From positions 1 through 64,000 of the forward strand of contig JAJVIH010000012.1 of assembly GCA_022072125.1 (NCBI GenBank): a stretch of 64,000 nt of DNA, given 5' to 3'. Source of the DNA: Myxococcota bacterium (GTDB lineage Bacteria > Myxococcota > JAJVIH01). The notes under the pieces were generated by a model. The model made no database searches. It was not told the DNA's origin and worked only from the letters and a program-made list of their open reading frames with translations. Of the stretch, positions 14,791-18,079 are shown one piece after another. Positions within the stretch are counted from its first letter, which is position 1, and each line of letters starts with the position of its first letter. Position numbers and translations under genes: made by a program.

Positions 14791-15174
14791 TTATGGCGTG
14801 ACAATGCGCGGGCGGTTCAGTTCTTCTTCAATCTTCTTCCGCACCTCGGCCATGTCCAGCGCCCGCACTTCCGTGACAAGCTGCTCCAGAATCTGAGGCG
14901 GCAGCAGCCCCGGCTGCTCGAAGATGAGCACGCCTTCCTTGAACACCATCAGGGTGGGAATGCTGCGGATTTCAAACGCCGCGGCGAGGCCGCCCTCTTC
15001 ATCGGTGTTGATCTTGCCCCAGGTGATGTCTGCGTGCTTCTCCGACGCCGCTTCAAAGATCGGCGCGAAGGATTTGCACGGCCCGCACCAAGGCGCCCAC
15101 CAGTCGAGAATGGTGATGCCGGGACCCGTGACGGTCTGCTCAAAATTGCTTTCAGTGATGGTCGTGGCCGCCAT
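14791..15174 (-). CDS. trxA: Thioredoxin
   Basis: 127 residues. The start at 15174 was chosen because AAGGAGG lies 9 nt upstream and it aligns with the family start; the open frame runs to 15579 but that is spurious. WAPWCGPCKSFAPIFE (Cys30, Cys33) is the catalytic dithiol motif, and SIPTLMVFKEG supplies the cis-Pro loop. A tail of about 20 residues beyond the usual thioredoxin end (AEVRKKIEEELNRPRIVTP) is charged and helical. It reduces protein disulfides; cytosolic. It shares an upstream region with the divergent, apparently cysteine-controlled sulfate-uptake operon, which fits a common thiol theme. Confidence 0.94.
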   Translation of the reverse strand: MAATTITESNFEQTVTGPGITILDWWAPWCGPCKSFAPIFEAASEKHADITWGKINTDEEGGLAAAFEIRSIPTLMVFKEGVLIFEQPGLLPPQILEQLVTEVRALDMAEVRKKIEEELNRPRIVTP

Positions 15175-15375
15175 GATATGCGTCCTCCTTGCCGGTTGGA
15201 GCCTGAGTCCGGTTGAAAGGGTTCGCACCATTGCGCTCATCCGCGCGGACCACGGCAGGCGGACTATATGCGTCCCGCCCCTGGAGGGAAAGCGGCGAAT
15301 GGCGGCCGCGCGGCCGGGAACGAATCCAGACGCCCATCCCCGCCGCGCAGGCGGAGCGAAACCTCGAAAGCATGC

Positions 15376-15405
15376 TTGACACTGCCGTTCAAGGCGTGTT
15401 ATAAA
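15376..15405 (+). promoter_or_regulatory. Strong sigma70-type promoter of the Cys leader/sulfate-uptake operon
   Basis: TTGACA (15376-15381), an 18-nt spacer, TATAAA (15400-15405): a perfect -35 box and a good -10 box. Transcription should start near 15412, only about 3 nt before the leader ATG at 15415, so the leader peptide is predicted to be translated from a leaderless or nearly leaderless mRNA. Confidence 0.8.
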
Positions 15406-15414
15406 TTGCAAACC

Positions 15415-15468
15415 ATGATCGCACGCCTCTGCTGTTGTTGTTGTCGCAACAATCCGGACCTCTGTTAG
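15415..15468 (+). CDS. Cysteine-rich leader peptide (candidate cysteine attenuator)
   Basis: A 17-residue open frame reads MIARLCCCCCRNNPDLC and then stops. The codons for residues 6-10 are TGC TGT TGT TGT TGT, five Cys codons in a row, with one more TGT right before the TAG. It starts just downstream of a strong promoter without room for a ribosome binding site, so translation would be leaderless. About 130 nt downstream begins an operon for a porin and a sulfate-binding protein. Runs of a regulated amino acid's codons in a short upstream frame are the hallmark of ribosome-mediated attenuation (trp, his, leu leaders; Cys-codon upstream frames are reported in actinobacteria). That this one senses charged tRNA-Cys is inference. 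Confidence 0.85.
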   Translation: MIARLCCCCCRNNPDLC

Positions 15469-15473
15469 TCCGG
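15438..15473 (+). promoter_or_regulatory. Overlapping hairpins within and after the Cys leader frame
   Basis: Hairpin 1 is TTGTTG (15438-15443), loop TCG, CAACAA (15447-15452), formed by the Cys codons themselves. Hairpin 2 is CCGGAC (15454-15459), 8-nt loop, GTCCGG (15468-15473), enclosing the last Cys codon and the stop. A ribosome paused on the tandem Cys codons would cover hairpin 1 and reach the left arm of hairpin 2. No U-tract follows, so a simple intrinsic terminator is not evident; control through Rho or through access to the downstream ribosome binding site (about 15586-15589) is more likely. Confidence 0.55.
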
Positions 15474-15595
15474 GCGGCGCGAGCATCGTCCACCCAACAC
15501 AATTCAGCTCACGCTGACCGGAATTTCCGCGGTTCTGAATCCCCGTGATTCGTCCGCTTTTCCGCGACAGCAATCCCATACCAACCGGAGATCAC

Positions 15596-16972
15596 ATGAA
15601 CACCCAGCCCACCGCCGTCAACGGCTTTCCCGCCATTTTTTCATTGATACGTTTTATACGGATAAATACATTGATATTTATCCTGAAAGCGCCGATCATT
15701 TTTCTTCCAGCCTCCGCCCGGGCCCAGGAAGGAACGGACGCCGCCAGTGCTGCGGCCACATCCGCCCCCGCTTCGTCCGCAACTGCTTCCACGGCGGCGG
15801 AGCCCGCGCCGGCTCCCGCCCCAAAAACCGCCAAACCAACCGTTGAAATCACCGGCGGGCCTGGGCAGGGCGTCACCTTTTCCACGGGAAAACATTTTTC
15901 CCTCAACCTCAAAAGCCGTATCCAGCTTCGTTATCAGTTGGCGATTCCTCCGGAAGACGCCAAGGGAGAGCGGAATCTTCAGCATCTGTTCAATATCGGC
16001 ACGGCGCGCATCTGGATTTCCGGCAACGTGCTGGACCCCAGCCTGACCTATATGATCCAGCTTGCGGTGGCGGGCCGCGACTACCGGGACAGCGCGATTT
16101 CGCCGGTATTCGACGCCTTCGTGGACTGGAAGGCGCACCGCGATTTCAACATCCGCGCGGGGCAATTCTTCGTGCCGTTTGACCGGCTGCGCACGGTGCG
16201 TGAGTTCGCCCTGCAATTGGCCGATCGTCCGCGTCCGGTTGCGGAACTGACGCTGGATCGCGATGTGGGCGTGACCGTGTATTCCGAACGCTTCCTGGGG
16301 GATCGCTCGCCGCTGGCGTGGCGGTTCAGCTTTTTCGGCGGCGGCGGGACCAATCTCAGCGAACTCAATAAAACCGGTGGATTGCTGGTGGGCCGGCTTG
16401 AACTGCGCCCGCTGGGTCCGATAGACGATGATTCGGAAGGCGATCTGGAGCGGCGCGAAGTTCCAGGCCTCGCCATCGGCGCCGCCTTCGCGCAGAACTG
16501 GAACACCAACCGCTTGCGCAGCACCACCGGGTCAACCTTCAAGGGAGGCGTCACCGATTACAGCCACGCGGCCGGCGATCTGGTCTTCAAATGGCGGGGC
16601 TTCGCGCTGCAATCCGAATACCTGTGGAAAAAAGCCTCGCGGGACGAGATCGCCTCCGTCAGTTCCACGGGCGCCAAAGTGGTGGAGCATACCCGTTCCG
16701 CCCATGGATGGATCGCCCAGACCTCCTATACGTTTGACCCGCCCTTTGAAGTGGTGGCGCGGCTGACCCGCATGTATGCGCTTGGCGATACGGATCCCAA
16801 ATTCGCGTCCGAACTGGACAGCAAGGGGCAGGAGGCGGCGGCGGGCCTCAACTACTACTTCAACGGCCACCGCTTCAAAATCCAGGCGGACTGGATCGCC
16901 CGCATGCCCCCCAACTTCGCTTTCGACAAGGCGGACCACGCCGTTCACCTGCAACTGGACGCCACTTTCTAA
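15596..16972 (+). CDS. Phosphate-selective porin O/P-family outer-membrane porin
   Basis: 458 residues from the ATG at 15596, preceded by CCGGAG. An N-terminal signal region (hydrophobic 20-45, ending ASARAQ) is followed by an Ala/Pro linker and then a beta-barrel with alternating strands: FSLNLKSRIQLRYQLAIP, ARIWISGNVLDPSLTYMIQLAV, FNIRAGQFFVPFDRLRTVREFAL, ending in an aromatic residue (QLDATF), the usual outer-membrane assembly signal. This layout matches the OprP/OprO family. Its position before a sulfate-binding protein and behind a Cys leader suggests sulfate or another sulfur oxyanion as solute; that specificity is inferred. There are 27 nt to the next gene. Confidence 0.85.
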   Translation: MNTQPTAVNGFPAIFSLIRFIRINTLIFILKAPIIFLPASARAQEGTDAASAAATSAPASSATASTAAEPAPAPAPKTAKPTVEITGGPGQGVTFSTGKHFSLNLKSRIQLRYQLAIPPEDAKGERNLQHLFNIGTARIWISGNVLDPSLTYMIQLAVAGRDYRDSAISPVFDAFVDWKAHRDFNIRAGQFFVPFDRLRTVREFALQLADRPRPVAELTLDRDVGVTVYSERFLGDRSPLAWRFSFFGGGGTNLSELNKTGGLLVGRLELRPLGPIDDDSEGDLERREVPGLAIGAAFAQNWNTNRLRSTTGSTFKGGVTDYSHAAGDLVFKWRGFALQSEYLWKKASRDEIASVSSTGAKVVEHTRSAHGWIAQTSYTFDPPFEVVARLTRMYALGDTDPKFASELDSKGQEAAAGLNYYFNGHRFKIQADWIARMPPNFAFDKADHAVHLQLDATF

Positions 16973-16999: not shown

Positions 17000-18079
17000 A
17001 TGAACATCCATCGCATTTCCGCCGCCGCCGCCCTCCTCATATTGATTCTGGCCGCCCCCGCCTGCTCGAAAAAGGAAACGCCGTCTGCCAGCGGGCCGGG
17101 CGCCGCCACCGGCGCGCTCAACCAGGCCCCCTCCGGGGAGCCCATCACGCTGCTCAATGTATCCTACGATCCCACGCGCGAACTGTATTCGGACATCAAC
17201 CGCGCCTTCTCGAAGGCCTGGGCGGCCGGGGGCGGCGGCCCCATCACCATCCGGATGTCCCATGGCGGTTCGGGCAAGCAGGCCCGTTCCGTGATTGATG
17301 GGCTGGAAGCCGATGTGGTCACGCTGGCGCTGGCGTATGACATCCAGATGTTGCACGACAAGGGGAAGCTGATCCCGGCGGACTGGCAAAAGCGGCTGCC
17401 GTACAATAGCACGCCCTATGCCTCCACGATTGTATTCGTGGTGCGCAAGGGCAATCCGAAAAAGATCCGCGACTGGGAGGACCTGATCCAGCCGGGGGTG
17501 TCGGTCATCACGCCCAACCCCAAGACCTCTGGCGGAGCGCGCTGGAATTACCTGGCGGCGTGGGGATACGCCCTGCGCAAACCCGGCGGAGGCGAAGCGC
17601 AGGCGCGGGAATATGTGACGCGGCTGTTCAAAAACGTGCCCGTGCTGGACTCGGGCGCCCGCGGCTCCACCACCACCTTCTCCGAACGGGAGTTGGGGGA
17701 TGTGCTGATCGCCTGGGAAAACGAGGCGCTGCTGCTGACAAGGAATCAAAACCGGGATCGCTTTGAAACGGTGATTCCATCGGTCAGCATTCTGGCGGAG
17801 CCGCCGGTGTCGCTGGTGGACAATTACGCGGAAAAACGGGGCGTCACGGCCGCCGCCAACGCCTACCTGCAATTCCTTTATTCAGAAGAGGGTCAGGACA
17901 TCGCGGCGAAGCATTATTTCCGCCCGCGATCTCCGGCGGCGGCGCAGCGCCATGCCGGCGTCTTTCCGGCGTTCCCGCAGTTCACCATTGAAGAAGTGTT
18001 TGGCGGCTGGGCCGCCGCCCAGAAGGCGCATTTCGATGAGGGTGGAATTTTCGATCAGATCTACCAGCCGTCCAGGTGA
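17000..18079 (+). CDS. sbp: Sulfate ABC transporter substrate-binding lipoprotein
   Basis: 359 residues, with GGGAGA 7 nt before the ATG. The signal peptide ends in a lipobox (APAC, about Cys23). The body is a classical Sbp/CysP fold: [47 protein letters not shown] and the family signature [16 protein letters not shown] (about 174-189). A Ser/Gly/Ala-rich linker lies after the Cys. It captures sulfate (or thiosulfate) for an ABC importer. The permease and ATPase genes cysT, cysW and cysA do not follow, which is unusual, so it must work with subunits encoded elsewhere. It is co-transcribed with the porin and under the same leader. Confidence 0.93.

Follow-up and report, generated by a model that had tools for sequence, protein, structure and literature searches.

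A near-leaderless polycysteine leader ahead of a porin and sulfate-binding protein operon in Myxococcota: a probable cysteine-responsive attenuator

Introduction

In mycobacteria, leaderless short ORFs with a run of Cys codons serve as cysteine-responsive attenuators (Canestrari et al. 2020, Mol Microbiol 114:93, as recounted in excerpts of PMC9031893 and PMC13236596), and candidate polycysteine ORFs were first noted by Shell et al. 2015 (PMC4633059). Candidate leader peptides with Cys codons and without terminators were described in Actinobacteria by Seliverstov et al. 2005 (PMC1262725), and the excerpted text of that paper suggests Rho for the mycobacterial leaders that have no terminator. 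As far as the literature open without subscription shows, cysteine-directed attenuation has so far been described only in Actinobacteria, and in that literature we found no reports of Cys leaders in Myxococcota or Acidobacteria.

We analyzed a window of 64,000 nucleotides from a Myxococcota genome (contig JAJVIH010000012.1) in which a short ORF with five tandem Cys codons and one final Cys codon precedes a porin gene and a sulfate-binding protein gene; such a Cys-codon run is a sequence feature of leaderless polycysteine attenuators. Judged by its sequence, this leader is most likely of the leaderless polycysteine attenuator kind known from mycobacteria, with which it shares a Cys-codon run, a position in front of an operon for sulfur or cysteine, and, as predicted from its promoter, a leaderless or near-leaderless start. 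It differs in that its host belongs to Myxococcota rather than Actinobacteria, that it serves an outer-membrane porin together with a sulfate-binding protein, and that it is known from sequence alone; its relatives differ from the mycobacterial ORFs in having intrinsic terminators or other output stages. Phylum and genes also set it apart from the Actinobacteria leaders of Seliverstov et al., for which the excerpted text describes no leaderless start (PMC1262725). With the trp/his-type attenuators of Proteobacteria it shares a run of codons for the end product and alternative hairpins downstream of the stall site, whereas its leader ORF is not preceded by a Shine-Dalgarno sequence, and a convincing pair of terminator and antiterminator is absent from it, although present in its Myxococcaceae relatives. 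What is new here is the phyla (Myxococcota and Acidobacteriota) and the variety of output stages.

The leader ORF begins at or near the expected transcription start

The promoter (Table 1) has one mismatch to consensus, and the leader ATG lies 9 nt past its −10 box, the two being separated by TTGCAAACC. An automated promoter scan did not list this site because the scan demands T at the last −10 position. The peptide reads Met-Ile-Ala-Arg-Leu, five Cys, and Arg-Asn-Asn-Pro-Asp-Leu-Cys before a TAG stop (15466-15468), the last Cys codon (TGT, 15463-15465) immediately preceding that stop. Direct reading thus confirmed both the strong promoter and the 17-codon frame of the preliminary description. 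Its leaderless start called for softer wording: if transcription begins 6-8 nt past the −10 box, the 5′ UTR would be about 1-4 nt long (0-4 nt at most by the promoter geometry), and we prefer leaderless or nearly so. No Shine-Dalgarno sequence was seen upstream of the leader ATG.

The porin and the sulfate-binding gene that the same description had placed behind the leader are supported by their family matches, and the sulfate-binding protein exceeds its NCBIfam cut-off, which puts the leader at a sulfur gene, where leaderless polycysteine attenuators are found. A thioredoxin gene (14791-15174) runs in the opposite direction nearby. The permease genes cysT/cysW lie elsewhere in the genome (G000:C15:1486-3144), after a SulP-like transporter and carbonic anhydrase, and no Cys leader was found at that cysTW operon. 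Inside the start of the porin gene, an AT-rich segment (15640-15700) holds promoter-like matches (TTGATA/TACATT).

Table 1. Features of the leader region and of the genes behind it, in window coordinates
Feature	Position	Strand	Basis
Sigma-70 type promoter TTGACA-N18-TATAAA: −35 box TTGACA (15376-15381), 18-nt spacer, −10 box TATAAA (15400-15405)	15376..15405	+	read directly; −35 to ATG, 39 nt
Expected transcription start, 0-4 nt 5′ of ATG	15411..15415	+	predicted from promoter spacing
Leader peptide ORF MIARLCCCCCRNNPDLC, 17 aa, leaderless or nearly so	15415..15468	+	sequence read
Five tandem Cys codons TGC TGT TGT TGT TGT, presumed stall site	15430..15444	+	read directly
Hairpin P2 (UCCGGAC / GUCCGGG; arms 15453-15459 / 15468-15474), overlapping last Cys codon and stop	15453..15474	+	folding, −10.7 kcal/mol
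Competing long helix P3 (15469-15484 with 15507-15522)	15469..15522	+	folding; z −2.6 for 15458-15525
C-rich, G-poor untranslated stretch, possible Rho loading site	15480..15595	+	composition; putative function
Weak terminator-like hairpin with UUUU	15529..15561	+	folding, −10.8 kcal/mol, stem 15529-15557
Shine-Dalgarno region CGGAG before porin ATG	15586..15595	+	read directly
Outer-membrane porin, Porin_O_P family	15596..16972	+	Pfam PF07396, E 5e-10
Sulfate-binding protein (Sbp)	17000..18079	+	NF008022, 477 bits, cut-off 288

Myxococcaceae leaders share the geometry and carry strong terminators

Our comparison was made at the level of the phylum (195 Myxococcota genomes), the window's own class and family not being represented. 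A sulfate-binding gene was present in 69 of the 195 genomes, and in 32 of these 69 a short ORF with 3-5 Cys codons precedes sbp or its operon (27/27 genomes in one genus, 2/2 and 3/4 in two others). We aligned 34 Myxococcaceae leaders, 31 standing before sbp or its operon (loci L016-L019 and 27 loci among L053-L112, with the terminator pairing described below) and three before a haem-type importer. In these three, from genus g21 (L254, L255, L256), the Cys leader and its terminator are followed by a small ORF, MRRGIFSEILRDFIFQTLLIGLLLWALGAVR, and a haem/B12-type ABC importer rather than sbp.

All 34 leaders place the ATG 39-41 nt from TTGACA (39 in the window) and carry 3-5 Cys codons in frame within 27 distinct peptides, and a Shine-Dalgarno-like tetramer occurs in only two of them. 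The distance from the ATG to the Cys run varies in steps of three nucleotides, whereas promoter and trailer vary by single bases; this pattern is supportive, though not independent, as the set was chosen to be in frame.

A strong terminator (AAGCCCAC..GTGGGCTT with a U-rich tail) is present in 34/34 of these leaders, and its stem shows compensatory changes. It begins with GCCCAC about 100 nt past the ATG. Inside the leader ORF, 8-11 nt past the Cys run, lies GGTGGGC, which is complementary to the 5′ arm of the terminator, so that the two can pair as an antiterminator. In one genus, the frame is shifted after the Cys run, with the run still in frame and the GGTGGGC RNA segment kept. The Myxococcaceae leader has the appearance of a transcription attenuator that is ribosome-mediated and whose sensor is leaderless. 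In equilibrium folding the terminator was preferred even in the stalled state, and the switch would therefore have to be kinetic.

Further Cys leaders in family f23 and in Acidobacteriota

In the Myxococcota family f23, Cys-rich, near-leaderless ORFs (loci L257-L263; e.g., MNRMCACACCCRPGLTARVCARA) lie 36-39 nt from TTGACA and precede genes that we named, from their translations, siroheme synthase and sulfite reductase. No terminators were found in the f23 leaders. In most of them a segment further upstream can pair with the ribosome site of the first gene, apparently masking it, and the two sides covary, as in the compensating pairs GCTCCTTGC/GCAAGGAGC, GACTCC/GGAGTC, and GCTCCTG/CAGGAGT.

In-frame leaders also occur in Acidobacteriota (the phylum of locus L183), where most end in an obvious intrinsic terminator. 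With genes again named from translations, these leaders stand before cysG (L289), nirA (L324), and cysDN (L332), before a TauE-like exporter with cysDN (L325), and before peroxiredoxin (L322, L323, and L326). At L321:244-522, a tRNA-Cys(GCA) gene and a peroxiredoxin gene (the latter named from its translation) come after the leader MFGRIAHMCCCCRSTSGSYRHTAERGGARSF and a terminator, a possible case of tRNA-Cys supply feeding back on its own gene. A Rhodopseudomonas infernalis candidate (L185, MRHSHDEDFVADCCCA) was set aside as it had no promoter support. Among 80 named loci outside Myxococcota chosen by sbp similarity, we saw essentially no poly-Cys ORF at sbp itself.

Near-leaderless Cys-codon leaders before genes of sulfur uptake and assimilation thus recur in frame in both Myxococcota and Acidobacteriota. 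Given this recurrence, the window's leader is best read as placing sulfate uptake under cysteine-responsive control.

Neither chance nor an acting peptide accounts well for the Cys codons

We considered whether the Cys run could be a product of chance in an untranslated leader or in TGT-rich DNA, the operon being controlled only at its promoter. We simulated 8 Mb of first-order Markov sequence with the composition of the window and counted ATG-started ORFs of at most 40 codons, which gave two short ORFs with at least four consecutive Cys codons and none with five. None of the simulated poly-Cys ORFs had a promoter with six or fewer mismatches, whereas the window combines five Cys codons with a promoter of one mismatch. 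Chance does not explain the leader ORF. Runs of four TGY codons do occur at 55 sites in the host genome, most of them out of frame or within long genes, and the window's leader has no close homologue for comparison. Against these points stand not only the simulated rarity but also the matching geometry in relatives and the link to sulfur genes, which is consistent across two phyla, and we regard control at the promoter alone, with a fortuitous Cys run, as highly improbable. Pattern scans of the host genome yielded no in-frame poly-Cys ORF at such a promoter other than the leader itself. A second match to the combined promoter and Cys pattern (G000:C25:31893) was dismissed since it falls within a 632-codon ORF, and the other poly-TGY short ORFs of the genome, with 30 of the 55 sites read fully, were rejected as sitting in other genes or at a terminator. 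One ORF, MSCCCCDNGPLGGLRTALWFFRTNGD (L219, G000:C13:5589-5600), which lies behind a NifU-like gene and extends across a strong terminator, is probably a chance ORF.

Another possibility is that the product is active in its own right, for instance as an arrest peptide that binds metals or thiols, rather than reporting charged tRNA-Cys. Neighbouring Cys residues might serve for metal binding or for sensing oxidation, and some Acidobacteriota leaders precede peroxiredoxin. However, lineages do not share the peptide sequence beyond the Cys codons, three genomes tolerate a frame-shifted C terminus, and TGC and TGT interchange freely, all of which makes an acting peptide very improbable. We hold with good confidence that cysteine-responsive stalling of ribosomes is the sensor in the window and, with nearly the same confidence, that the element as a whole is a cysteine-responsive leader-peptide attenuator.

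RNA structures in the window point to more than one possible output stage

The leader of the window folds better than its shuffles (z −2.8, 1/300), although for a slightly longer stretch the value was only −1.6. The overlapping hairpins of the preliminary description were recovered in folding as P2 and the competing helix P3, which are mutually exclusive; P3 forms once the 5′ arm of P2 is covered, and its stability exceeds that of shuffled sequences (Table 1). Base pairing between the Cys codons themselves and RNA further downstream, tried in the window and in two relatives (L056 and L059), did no better than shuffles and was dropped. No Rfam family, whether riboswitch, T-box or other leader, matched 15176-15700 at E values up to 1.

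We also found that the absence of a U-tailed terminator, as previously claimed, holds only in part: a hairpin followed by UUUU does exist, but it is weak and fell below the threshold of our terminator scan, which did not list it. The same sensor could act on this hairpin by classical trp-type transcription attenuation, as the Myxococcaceae leaders would suggest with their GGTGGGC-paired, covarying terminators, and the terminators that end most Acidobacteriota leaders point the same way. In the window, however, the candidate terminator has four U only, no segment close to the Cys run is clearly complementary to its 5′ arm, and folding gave no exclusive antiterminator. Modelled ribosome positions did not switch it; the hairpin was present in all modelled states, with a probability of 0.8-1.0 up to the U tract. 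We consider a trp-type output unlikely in the window.

Alternatively, the output of the same sensor could be translational, the stalled ribosome freeing the Shine-Dalgarno region of the porin with no premature termination. This is what has been reported for the mycobacterial leaderless polycysteine leaders (excerpts of PMC9031893 and PMC13236596), and the f23 leaders, with their compensating ribosome-site pairs, argue for it; like them, the window's leader lacks a strong terminator and has a CCGG hairpin immediately behind its Cys codons. Yet the porin ribosome site was predicted to be poorly accessible in every state and least accessible in the stalled-like ones, which is the wrong direction, and a translational output is in our estimate possible but doubtful. 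Our estimates for these two alternatives concern the output stage alone and do not compete with the sensor claim.

Our first guess for the output stage is Rho-dependent termination in the C-rich stretch, with control at the porin ribosome site and the weak hairpin as close seconds. This stretch contains 43 C and 22 G, and its excess of C over G is in the top 1.5% of 78-nt windows; it would suit Rho, as suggested for mycobacterial Cys leaders without terminators (excerpted text of PMC1262725).

A conditional scheme for cysteine-responsive sulfate uptake

That the window's leader is translated, that ribosomes stall on it, in which direction expression responds, and by what output stage are all inferred, and the scheme may be put as follows. 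Transcription would start at most a few bases from the leader ATG, and translation by a 70S ribosome would set in at once. When charged tRNA-Cys is plentiful, the ribosome would pass the five Cys codons and reach the stop at 15466, where it would cover or refold the RNA; most transcripts would then end ahead of the porin or go untranslated there. When tRNA-Cys is uncharged, the ribosome would halt at the tandem Cys codons and cover the 5′ arm of P2; P3 would then form, expression of porin and Sbp would go up, and more sulfate would be imported. One feature counts against this scheme: at the last Cys codon before the stop, the ribosome could stall where P3 would be masked. Of the earlier proposal that starvation for charged tRNA-Cys raises sulfate uptake, cysteine-responsive control stands as the best reading by the recurrence of such leaders across two phyla, and the starvation response and the effect on porin expression keep the status of an inference.

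More tentatively, and with a little less than even confidence, we suggest that these leaders are versions of one ancient, modular cysteine gauge, a near-leaderless Cys-codon ORF fixed at about 40 nt from the −35 box that would be found in at least Actinobacteria, Myxococcota, and Acidobacteriota. It would be joined to intrinsic terminators, to masking of ribosome sites, or possibly to Rho, and would control sulfate uptake, siroheme and sulfite reduction, peroxiredoxin, ATP sulfurylase, and in one case the gene for tRNA-Cys itself, with the window's leader representing a Rho- or RNA-refolding version. The two further phyla, often with easily assayed intrinsic terminators, offer genetically tractable systems (Myxococcus) for amino acid sensing by leaderless ORFs. 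The findings suggest that tRNA-Cys charging sets sulfur uptake in many soil bacteria, and a connection with oxidative stress is hinted at by the Acidobacteriota leader that stands before tRNA-Cys and peroxiredoxin.

Porin relatives and other sbp loci

The preliminary description had held that relatives with a porin/sbp operon and no Cys run in any upstream short frame would speak against the proposal, and such relatives exist in part. The nearest relatives of the window's porin (44% identity for G100/L056 and G097/L059; 38% for G172/L100) have short ORFs (MLKVRRRCCRPSSFHR, MTKVRRRCCRPSPCHR, and MAHCFSCHRPVSR) closely behind a TTATAT −10 box, with only 2-3 Cys codons, among them just one adjacent pair (RRRCCRP) or two that stand apart. 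These three leaders have no evident terminator. With fewer Cys codons and no evident terminator, this operon type therefore appears to share the leader in a weaker form. A poly-Cys leader (at least three Cys codons) adjoining the sulfate-binding gene was absent in 37 of the 69 Myxococcota genomes with this gene, as against the 32 that have the leader. Apart from those 32 and the three porin relatives, the sbp loci of the phylum had no Cys leader within the stretch examined, including all 12 from the Anaeromyxobacter-like family f13 (0/12).

Upstream of or over the −35 region, a palindrome of the type CCGCTATAGCGG / CCGCTATAACGG occurs in the three porin relatives (L056, L059, and L100) and in L076 and L112, and is possibly the site of a sulfur regulator acting beside the leader.
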